Shown here piece after piece: positions 10,737 through 14,997 of a DNA stretch of 64,000 nt (position 1 is the stretch's first letter; every line of letters starts with the position of its first letter). The stretch is from Amaranthus tricolor (lineage: Eukaryota > Streptophyta > Magnoliopsida > Caryophyllales > Amaranthaceae), in NCBI RefSeq assembly GCF_026212465.1, contig NC_080062.1:6655635-6719634 (forward strand), in the 5' to 3' direction. Made by a program: the position numbers and the translations under genes. The notes under the pieces were generated by a model. It made no database searches, had not been told where the DNA came from, and was given only the letters and a program-made list of their open reading frames with translations.

Positions 10737-11284
10737 AATAATGAGCCAATATAATAAATAATAAAAAATTAATAAATATGAAAAAATAATAATTAAATAA
10801 CACAAGTATTTGGAACGAGATTTACTAAAAAAATACTCCCTCCTATTCAGCCAAAGAGTCCTATTTGACTTTTCACGAATTTTAAGGTGGGTCAAAATGA
10901 GATGTTAAGGGTAGGAGAGAGAGTGATGTTATGGGTTTTTAAATGAATTGATCAAGAGATTAATTATTCCCTCCAAATTTGAAGATACTTGTATACTTTT
11001 ACAAATGGTAAATAATGAGCCAATATAATAAATAATAAAAAATTAATAAATATGAAAAAATAATAATTAAATAACACAAGTATTTGGAACGAGATTTACT
11101 AAAAAAATACTCCCTCCTATTCAGCCAAAGAGTCCTATTTGACTTTTCACGAATTTTAAGGTGGGTCAAAATGAGATGTTAAGGGTAGGAGAGAGAGTGA
11201 TGTTATGGGTTTTTAAATGAATTGATCAAGAGATTAATGATTCCCTCCAAATTTGAAGATACTTGTATACTTTTACAAATGGTA
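10737..11284. repeat. 274-bp perfect-spaced tandem duplication
   Basis: Two copies (10737-11010 and 11011-11284) are nearly identical; I see one difference (ttaattattcc versus ttaatgattcc). Each copy contains about 99 bp of flank and then about 175 bp starting at the mariner terminus TA|CTCCCTCCTATTCAGC (10836 and 11110). The duplication therefore spans the left insertion junction of the mariner-like element. Confidence 0.95.
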
Positions 11285-11709
11285 AATATTTTTCACCTCC
11301 AAAAGTCTTTAATTTTTTTCAGTTCATAGTGAAAATTACATAGTTCGGGTTCATAACCGAAAATACATACGTCCTACAAATACATTACATAATTAGTCCG
11401 ACTAATAAAGAAAATTACATAGTTCGACTACTTAATCTCGGATAGCCTTCTCAATTCTTCAACAGCTTCGATGTAGTTGCAGTCTTTGTTGATCATGTGG
11501 GTGCGGATTTTTTTTCGATCAGTGACTTCAGATTTTTCACATTACCAAAAAAATCAATGAATTAATATTTTTATAAATTGCCACGGAATTGTAAACAATT
11601 AACCAAATTTTCATTTTGTAAAAAAATCATCACAGTACCATCCCATTTTGTTTCAAAAAACCAAAAACAAATGTCCAAAAAAAAACAGAAATCAACTTAA
11701 ACAAACCAG

Positions 11710-11859
11710 AAACCAGAATGCACAAACAGACGCCAAAAATGAAAATGCAAGCTAAACAGAAACCAGAATACACAAACAGGGCCCAAAAATGAAAGTGCAA
11801 GCTAAACAGAAATCAGAATACACAAACAGGCGCCAAAAGTGAAAGTGCAAGCTAAAAGA
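11710..11859. repeat. 50-bp minisatellite, three units
   Basis: Units begin at 11710, 11760 and 11810. Each contains cagaat.cacaaacag then tgaaa.tgcaagctaaa, with a few substitutions between units. It lies just upstream of the transposase start. Confidence 0.9.
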
Positions 11860-11992
11860 AAATCAACTTAAACAAATCAGAAACCAAAGTCATCAAATGT
11901 TGGCGCCATTAATGAAAATGCAAAACAGATATTCAGACCTAGTTGATTATATACCAAGTCATCAACCTCATTAATTACACATCCAAATTAAA

Positions 11993-13350
11993 ATGGCTCC
12001 TTCCAAAAATCTCTCCACCCAACAAAGAAATCAAATAATGCAAAAACTATTTTCCACATTAAAAAAATAAAGAAAACCAGTGCAAGGAACAATTAATGCA
12101 CTTGCAACAGAATTTGAAGTGTGTAGGAAAACCATCACGAGATTATGGAAAGAAGTTCAAAAGCAAAGGGTAACCAACAACATAGTCATCAACCTCAACA
12201 ACAAGAGGGTTGGAAGACAAGCACCAAACAAGATTCAATTTGATGAGGAAAAATTCAAGTCCATCAACTCAGTTGCAAAGCAAATAGAGGTATCACAGTT
12301 TACGGTTTGTAGGTGGAAGAAGGACAAAGTAATTAGAAAGCACACAAATGCAATCAAGTTGCAATATGATGAACAAAATGATTCTTTCAAGTTTAAGCCA
12401 CATACTAACATTGTTCATATTGATGAAAAGCATTTTTATCTAACCCGGGAATCACATACTTACTACCTAGCACCGGGTAAAGTAGAACCACATAGGGAAT
12501 GTCAGTCCAAAAGATTCATCTCAAAAATAATGTTCATGTGTGCTGTTGCAAATCCAATTTTTTTAACTAATGGTGATGTGTTTTTTGATGGTAAGATAGA
12601 GATATGGCCTTTTATTATTCAAGAGTCTGCCAAAAAGAGCTCAAAGAACAATAAGAGGGGGGAATTGGAGACCAAGCCAATACAATCAATAACCAAAGAG
12701 CATATGAGATCAATGCTAATAACTAATGTCCTACCCATCATTAGAGCTAAGTGGCCACACGGAACGTCAAAGCACATTTTCATTCAACAGGATGATGCAA
12801 AGCCACACATAGCACACAATGACAGAGAGTATATGGAGGAGGCAATGAAAGATGATTTTTTTTATACAACTTGTACAACAACCACCAAGTTCTCCTAACA
12901 TGAATGTACTAGACCTAGGATTTTTTAGATCAATTTAGGCTTTGCAATATCAGAAAGTAACCTACAATGTACCACAATTATTAAGGGCTGTGAGTAATGC
13001 ATTTGACAATTTAAGTCCTTAATTGTTTAAGATTTGTGTTCATAACATTACAAGCATGCATGATTGAGGTCATGAAAAGGCAAGGGGGTATTGACTATCA
13101 TATCCCACATATGAAAAAAACCAAAGCAGCTAGGGAAGGGACTTTGCCTAACTATCTAAGTGTGGACAAACAGTTAGTTGTTGATTCTCTTCAACATTTA
13201 TTCACAAAAATCAGTTCAGAGACCATGAAACTATTGGTGGAAATGATAGGGTATGCAGAGGTTATTGAAGAAGGTCAAGTTAATGTCACTGACAACATAA
13301 CCACCACAGCAAGCCAGATGCATGAACAAAAAATCCAACAACAAGAATAA
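11993..13350 (+). pseudogene. Mariner-like transposase (inactive)
   Basis: The frame starts at ATG 11993 (MAPSKNLSTQQRNQI) but meets an in-frame TAA at 12068. It continues with a helix-turn-helix region (LATEFEVCRKTITRLWKEVQ), then the catalytic domain: first Asp in VHIDEKHFYL, KSKRFISKIMFMCAVANP, DGKIEIWPF, and second Asp in IFIQQDDAKPHIA. A frameshift near 12855-12865 (T-run) precedes PPSSPNMNVLDLGFFRSI, where the third catalytic Asp (SPD in active relatives) is Asn. Another stop follows, and the C-terminus is at 13036-13350. Plant mariner-like transposases are DD39D enzymes of about 450-500 aa cutting at TA. This copy has nonsense, frameshift and active-site lesions. Confidence 0.9.
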
Positions 13351-14997
13351 ACCACAACAGCAAGAAGAACAATAGAGAGGAAGTTTTTTGGGAGCAACAA
13401 CAATGAACAAAAACAACCACAAACACAACAGTGAAGATCATTTTTGGAAGAATAGGACCAGATCAAGCATAACAGTCAACAACCTTTTAGGAGCAACAAC
13501 AACAATAAACACCAACATAACAAGTACGAAAATGAACAGCAAGCAACACAGCAAAACAGAAAAGGAAATCACTTACCATGTCAACACAGCAAATCATGAT
13601 TTTTTTGGACAAATTTTGAGATCTTGAAAATGGGATGTTTCAGATTGAAACAACAAGTGTAAAAATTTAATGTTGTTTAAAATGAAACATTTGTACTCAT
13701 GCTTACAATAATGAAAAAAAGTGATTTTTTTTTACAGAACTCTCAGAAAATTTTCATTTTTGTGAAATCATTGAGCAAAAAAAAAATATCTAAACACTTT
13801 AAGTCTTGGAAAACCATCTTTTTTGTTCGTTTTTTAGTGGCAAAAAAAATGCTCTCACTTAAAGATAATTGAGCATGTGAAAATCATGCATCAAAAAACC
13901 CTAAAACGAAAAATCATCACCAGTCAAAACACAACCACAAGAACAAAAACATACTTGAAAATGGGCCAAGTTTGTCAAGCCAATCTTCAACCTCACAATC
14001 AGTTTTAGAAAAATAAGCATCAATAGAAGAATATTCACGATCAGGCCACAGATCAACCTTAGGAGTGTAAATGGGTTCACCCTCAGAATCTAATTCTCTA
14101 CCCCACTTTGGATCTGTTTCAACTGAAAAGCATGCATCATCATAGGAGTCAAAAAACTCATCGTCATAAAACTTAGGGTTCTCTAGAGGAGATTTGGGGA
14201 TTTTCAGAGGGGAAACATTAGGCGAGTTAGGGTTCTTGAGAGGGGAGGTACTGAGCGATTTAGGATTATTGAGAGGAGAGGTGAGGTAACGAGCAATTTG
14301 GGGTTTTCCATGAAGATAGAGCTAGGTAAAACCAAGAAAAACGCAAAAGAGAGATGAAGGAGAAGAACAAGAAACCACGAAGAAGGAAATCAGAGGACAG
14401 AGAAGAGCACAAACCCAAATCTACGGTTCTAAGGAAGAGTTAATAATGGAGGAAACCAGAGGACAGAGAAGAACACGAAGAAGAAAATGAAAGGGGATGG
14501 GGTGAGGTGGGGTGGGGTGGGGTAGGGTTGGTAGGGTTAGGGTTTAAATTGGAGGGAAGGATTAAGTAGTGTTTATATTAGGTTGGTTTAATTGATTATT
14601 TAAGATAAGAGGGGTAAATTAGTTGGGTTTAATGAGGGCATAAATGTAAATATGTTAAGTCAAGTAAGGGCATAAGGGTAAAAATTACATACCAAAAATA
14701 AAAATGGAACATTTAGGGTGACTTGACCCTAAAAGGAATGAGACACATAAGCTGAATAGGAGTGAGTATAATAGTTGTGTCGTTTAAGTAGGGAGAATTG
14801 TTTTAGTATGGGCTGAGCCAACAAAAATGCATGTATAATCCACTATTTTTTTATTTTTTTATATGAAAACATGCATGTAATTTTTTGATTAGATAATTCA
14901 CCACCTTTTTTTATATTTATTTCGTAGTTAATGGAAGGGCTCTTAGCGGCGGATAATTATTTTTTATCGCTATTAATGAACATTCTCACTCCATACC

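Follow-up and report, generated by a model that had tools for sequence, protein, structure and literature searches.

The window analysed here, a 64,000-nucleotide stretch of the Amaranthus tricolor genome (contig NC_080062.1, positions 6,655,635 to 6,719,634 of the forward strand), contains a mariner-like element at 11110..14766 on the plus strand, which we call the window copy of family a. An earlier note on this DNA had proposed an element bounded by terminal inverted repeats (TIRs) and flanked by TA, and both the sequence and its ends bear this out. The flanking TA dinucleotides lie on both sides of the element, at 11108-11109 and 14767-14768, and the TIRs are clearest at 11110..11126 (plus strand) and 14750..14766 (minus strand), where the left end, CTCCCTCCTATTCAGCC, matches the reverse-complemented right end, CTCACTCCTATTCAGCT. 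The first 179 bases of the element have a second copy, 99% identical, at 10836-11014, 274 bases upstream of the left end; the left end and its flank have thus been duplicated in tandem.

The plus-strand transposase gene was found at 11993..13350, where the note had placed it, but it is a broken remnant of the DD39D type: aligned to the open copy L024, it has 5 stops in 454 codons, and its open pieces run from 12080 to 12898 and from 13036 to 13350. The DDD catalytic triad can be read in three copies, L024, L048 and L053, with 122 and 39 residues between the aspartates. Matches of the transposase in Pfam were each below the curated cut-off (DUF7769, E 1.7e-5; HTH_23, E 2.7e-4; DDE_3, E 0.013), a search against PDB sequences gave no match and the predicted structure model was of poor quality.

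On the opposite strand lie the two exons of a second gene. Exon 1 occupies 13955..14311 (minus strand) and ends at 13955, directly before a splice donor GT (13953..13954, minus strand; GTATGT). Its proposed start did not hold up: the ATG at 14311 does not share the frame of the rest of exon 1, reading from it meets a stop at codon 36, and the frame of the relatives is open only from about 14270 to 13955. Exon 2, including the stop codon, lies at 11428..11525 (minus strand), as had been predicted; it follows CTGAAG and an acceptor AG (11526..11527, minus strand; AATCTGAAG), and its 98 bases equal the length of the L024 exon 2. With this ATG in another frame and the coding frame open over part of exon 1, the window copy does not encode the protein that had been described for it. 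Unlike the window copy, L024, L048, L051, L052 and L053 do encode the second-gene protein. The window element is thus a dead copy of a transposon, broken in both genes; the antisense gene with its two exons does exist, as a gene of the transposon.

This last point rests on a comparison of copies. A DNA search of the Amaranthus tricolor genome (520 Mb, 45 contigs) with the window element gave 1393 candidate places, 40 of which were scored, and the family a set comprises 39 copies, the window copy and 38 others fetched from the genome. Exon 1 is present in 30 of these, exon 2 in 29 and both in 21. The earlier note had reasoned that a gene carried by every copy would belong to the element, and a gene carried by this one alone would be a capture. 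In all nine copies that lack exon 1, the match to element DNA does not extend there; nine of the ten that lack exon 2 likewise have no element DNA match at that place, and the tenth, L036, is gapped. Copies without an exon therefore lack the element DNA itself (with the gap in L036), which favours a gene of the element. The splice signals are retained as well: 29 of the 30 copies have the donor GT, which reads GTATGT in 25, and the acceptor AG is found in 27 of the 28 copies with letters there, one further copy being gapped.

The reading frames of both exons are open beyond chance, as judged by counting stops in all six frames. In the claimed frame of exon 1, 14 stops occur in 2934 codons, as against 93 to 630 in about 2900 codons for each of the five other frames; for exon 2 the figures are 5 stops in 872 codons and 20 to 87 stops in the other five. 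Third codon positions hold 42-43% of the differences in the second-gene exons (43% in exon 2). Pooled pN/pS within family a is 0.55 for exon 1 and 0.54 for exon 2, values that are expected if dead copies are the source of many of the differences. A pN/pS of 0.60, near the 0.55 of the coding frame, is also reached in one exon 1 frame on the opposite strand, yet this frame contains 119 stops.

The same order, exon 1 followed by an oppositely oriented transposase and then exon 2, recurs in three other families of this genome, which were read from representatives (one or two each for families c and d). The transposases of the families with this layout are down to about 56% identical. The nested opposite-strand layout suggested for the window, with the transposase inside the intron of an antisense gene, holds in four of four families; in the earlier note's proposal, such a layout would couple the two transcripts. 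In family b, L048 has 36-nt TIRs and a 479-aa DD39D transposase, which is flanked on its two sides by exons 1 and 2, both of them open and on the other strand. Forty of 2228 candidate places were scored for this family, and 30 are full length, 27 of them at at least 91% identity and 17 at at least 96% (L048 is included in each of these counts). L048 and L051, which lies on another chromosome, show 6 differences in 3548 aligned bases, none of them coding, in addition to 13 gap columns. L052 differs from L048 by 5.3% in non-coding DNA, by 2.5% in exon 1, by 2.1% in exon 2 and by 2.6% in the transposase, and both genes are open in L048, L051 and L052 alike. In a search with the transposase, 15 of 92 matches span residues 1-478 or 1-479 at at least 96% with no stop. 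A genome search with the divergent exon 1 of the protein P0030 returned 233 candidates; all 150 that were scored match, 120 of them without an internal stop. The idea that matches to exon 1 of 159 codons are deletion derivatives was rejected, as several are full-length copies at 91-93%.

Family c (L047 and L050) has the same order of exons and transposase. Both of its transposases are broken, the exon 2 frame of L047 is broken too, and no complete TIR pair was seen in either locus. Positions 3677-3963 of L050 also hold 287 bases that resemble a Stowaway-type MITE, with 33-nt inverted repeats that start TACTCCCTCC. Family d was detected by way of its transposase, which is 55-56% identical to the protein P0051 (12 matches, 10 without stops). 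Its representative, L053, has TIRs and a 501-aa DD39D transposase; exon 1, on the strand opposite the transposase, ends in the donor CATTTTCTC|GTATGG, and the acceptor of exon 2, AATCTGAAG, is identical over nine bases to that of families a and b. Joined, the two exons encode a product of 131 aa, at the same place in the element. Searched singly against family b within the 5-kb locus, the exons of L053 gave E 2.8e-6 (exon 1) and 0.059 (exon 2), and a profile of six joined proteins from families a-c matched the joined d protein at E 3.3e-9, the best of 20,000 shuffles reaching 0.12. Because the d junction was chosen by the analyst, this profile match speaks for homology and not for splicing. 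Another d copy, on another chromosome, is identical to L053 in two stretches (802 bases) that include both exons. Near-identical copies are thus seen across chromosomes in both families (L048 and L051 in family b, L053 with L054-L055 in family d). The data suggest that families b and d have transposed very recently. TIRs with a TA target duplication are present in the window element, L048, L049 and L053; L024 has no TA on its left side. The second gene, then, is present at the same place across families a-d, as expected of a gene encoded by the element.

The in-phase junction anticipated for the window is identical to that of an NCBI gene model, LOC130806949 (P0004, 132 aa), and is conserved in other copies. 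P0004 is itself identical to the joined exons of L024, a copy in which the transposase (491 aa) is open as well. Gene models that are spliced past exon 1 number three, and P0004 is the only one to use exon 2. The other two, P0030 (LOC130825072, at L047) and P0042 (from A. hypochondriacus), start with exon 1 and then continue into other residues, leaving the element; the P0030 tail was looked for in the 4.8-kb locus L047 and was not found there. These continuations possibly represent exonisation of a transposon gene or errors of annotation. They could also be taken to mean that exon 1 is complete in itself, reading into the intron or being spliced variously, and that exon 2 is a stretch of exon-like conserved DNA. 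Many of the database proteins among the matches listed do end in intron sequence (e.g. SSMFLFL), and endings of this kind, as expected of unspliced predictions, speak for exon 1 alone; moreover, the DNA near exon 2 is about as conserved as exon 2 itself. Against this reading, exon 2 bears the codon signature described above in its few stops and its share of third-position differences, its acceptor and phase are conserved, a match to it lies at the same place in family d (weak when searched singly), and P0004 joins both exons. We therefore hold it to be quite unlikely that exon 1 stands alone, and prefer a gene of two exons.

Between families, the second gene is under purifying selection at the protein level, although the estimate is rough. 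For the joined gene, dN/dS was 0.17 [0.08-0.31] between families a and b, 0.27 [0.12-0.51] between a and c, and 0.28 [0.14-0.52] between b and c (Nei-Gojobori with Jukes-Cantor correction and a codon bootstrap, L047 being excluded for its broken frame), values that are to be read as rough since pS is 0.56-0.68, with synonymous sites close to saturation. When L049 replaced L048, the values were 0.17 and 0.23. The transposase gave 0.10 [0.06-0.15] between a and b. For exon 2 by itself, with its 31 codons, the dN/dS intervals extend to about 1 or beyond; the comparison of L048 with L049, at 13 differences and 0.59 [0.19-2.73], is uninformative. It might be argued that what is conserved here is an antisense RNA, which would form double-stranded RNA with the transposase gene and so limit it, the reading frame being secondary. 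An unspliced antisense transcript would indeed be complementary to the whole transposase gene, and the DNA around the exons is conserved too. A coding frame that avoids stops and favours third-position changes, a dN/dS of 0.17-0.28 between families and a junction phase kept in four families all speak for a protein instead, and we consider it unlikely that RNA is the conserved product. All the same, the gene may act through its RNA as well as through the protein.

The earlier note had left the choice between capture of a host gene and an undescribed accessory protein. The copy test described above favours a gene of the element, and recent capture of a host gene found no support: no paralogue was found in the searches made, and the gene is present across families. 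Transposons often capture gene pieces, and in the literature searched there is no known counterpart of the second gene in other plant mariner elements, so that an element which took up a piece of a host gene in antisense and carried it passively has to be considered. Such a passenger would be hard to reconcile with four families that share its place, orientation and junction although their transposases are down to about 56% identical, with constraint on the joined gene between families, or with the searches made, in which no host paralogue was found. No host paralogue outside a transposon stood among the protein matches or was recognised among the genome matches; long or distant ones could escape, given that the genome listing held 150 scored exon 1 places, part of which were opened, and that proteins far longer than the queries could be missed. 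Since the searches could miss such paralogues, a capture may have taken place long ago. As a whole, we regard capture as very unlikely and the second gene as one of the element's own.

Between the transposase and exon 1, the intron also contains a conserved block, apparently non-coding, at 13560..13952 (L024 3640-3950), with a mean pairwise identity of 0.83-0.93 in 60-base bins of L024. A middle coding exon was considered here and rejected, as indels break each frame (judged by eye). The block holds an imperfect palindrome and two ATCATTGAGCAAA-like repeats (the latter seen by eye), and on its antisense strand GGTAAGT is found in 15 of the 17 copies with letters there. Its signal is possibly an alternative donor, the 3' end of the transposase transcript or something else.

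The second-gene protein is 128-165 aa long and resembles no family in the databases searched. Pfam returned no family for it at E up to 10, and for 17 of the proteins together gave a single insignificant match, in 1 of the 17; the PDB sequence search found no matching chain, and the best hit of a Foldseek search (E 8.2) was no fold match. In the profile search, 6 of 50 matches bear an organism name, all of them A. tricolor or A. hypochondriacus. Across 17 aligned proteins, the invariant or near-invariant residues read E-T-x-P-x-W-G-x-x-L-D-x-E-x-E-P-I-Y-T, then D-x-x-F-x-x-x-D-C-E-x-E-x-W-L-D, and the family d protein retains ETDPxWGR and GPFS. N-terminal parts are often rich in [ST]-P-x-[KR], which we take to be a CDK-type consensus: 79 matches were counted where shuffles would lead one to expect 9.0, and they fall in 32 of the 53 sequences, which are related, partly fragments and partly redundant. 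The motif is absent from the other 21, P0004 among them, and none was seen by eye in the L053 protein. The AlphaFold model of P0004 has low confidence over its first 90 residues and two helices, at residues 101-114 and 118-131, for which the block means are 85-92. The protein is thus predicted to be mostly disordered, with a helical hairpin. A reading in which these helices span the exon junction was rejected, as the predicted hairpin (101-131) begins at the split codon and lies in exon 2; since exon 2 alone encodes it, the prediction is no argument for the joining of the exons.

Soymar1, Osmar, Vulmar1 and Ppmar1/2 resemble the amaranth elements in their TA target, their CTCCCTCC-type ends and a single DD39D transposase of about 480-500 aa. 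MuDR, a plant transposon of another superfamily, carries a second conserved gene beside its transposase. Plant mariner-like elements were described in 2022 as typically having one ORF, the transposase (PMC9632168), and to this the amaranth elements, on that description, add an opposite-strand gene of two exons. The ciliate TBE elements, also Tc1/mariner, have extra ORFs, one of which (22 kD) is reverse to the transposase, and their ORFs are under purifying selection with dN/dS of 0.1-0.3 (PMC4724952). As far as that description goes, they resemble the amaranth elements in the reverse-oriented extra ORF, but they are ciliate elements with three ORFs side by side and no reported gene split around the transposase. 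PIF/Pong elements are plant DNA transposons with a transposase and a second conserved gene, and for their ORF1 a role in binding DNA and contacting proteins is proposed (PMC5543537); from what is described there, they differ in belonging to another superfamily, and the amaranth second protein has no Pfam match. A reverse extra ORF in ciliate Tc1/mariner elements and two-gene plant transposons of other superfamilies are therefore already known, as described in these sources. In the open-access PMC literature searched, no report of a plant mariner with a second gene was recognised; within that literature, the second gene of these elements appears to be new.

Taken together, these elements probably form a DD39D mariner-like group with two genes on opposite strands, the predicted second product being an accessory or regulatory protein. 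The exons of the second gene lie near the ends of the element and its intron would contain the whole transposase; transcription would start in the right end, and the transposase region would be spliced out of the transcript. The product may be a small regulator with a disordered N-terminus, often rich in S-P-x-K/R, an acidic core centred on ETxPxWG and, at the C-terminus, a helical hairpin that could bind a partner, either the transposase or a host factor. This protein would act in trans, permitting or tuning transposition. It seems more likely to regulate transposition than to catalyse it, since the rice Osmar transposase alone reportedly moves Stowaway elements in yeast. Precedents for such a protein include the second gene of MuDR, ORF1 of Pong and the VANC anti-silencing proteins. 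As the exons stand beside the element ends, internal deletions can destroy the transposase yet spare the second gene. L049 (2.3 kb) lacks most of the transposase and L018 a large part of it, and both exons are kept in each. Non-autonomous derivatives of this kind could go on supplying the second protein.

A more far-reaching proposal, which we put forward tentatively and think rather doubtful, is that the antisense two-exon gene is an ancient and general part of plant DD39D mariner-like elements whose product regulates transposition in trans, perhaps under cell-cycle control, and is supplied even by derivatives without a transposase. If so, the gene would have escaped notice because of its short, split and fast-evolving exons. 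Mariner elements are abundant in plants, as are the Stowaway MITEs that they mobilise. Whether the elements make a second protein is directly testable, as one sequenced plant has near-identical copies in which both genes are open. Nesting one gene in the intron of another on the opposite strand is also an uncommon arrangement for two genes, one of which internal deletions can spare. Plant mariners have been treated as one-gene systems, and a second conserved protein would redefine what constitutes an autonomous element; it might also help to explain how some lineages remain active or restrained.
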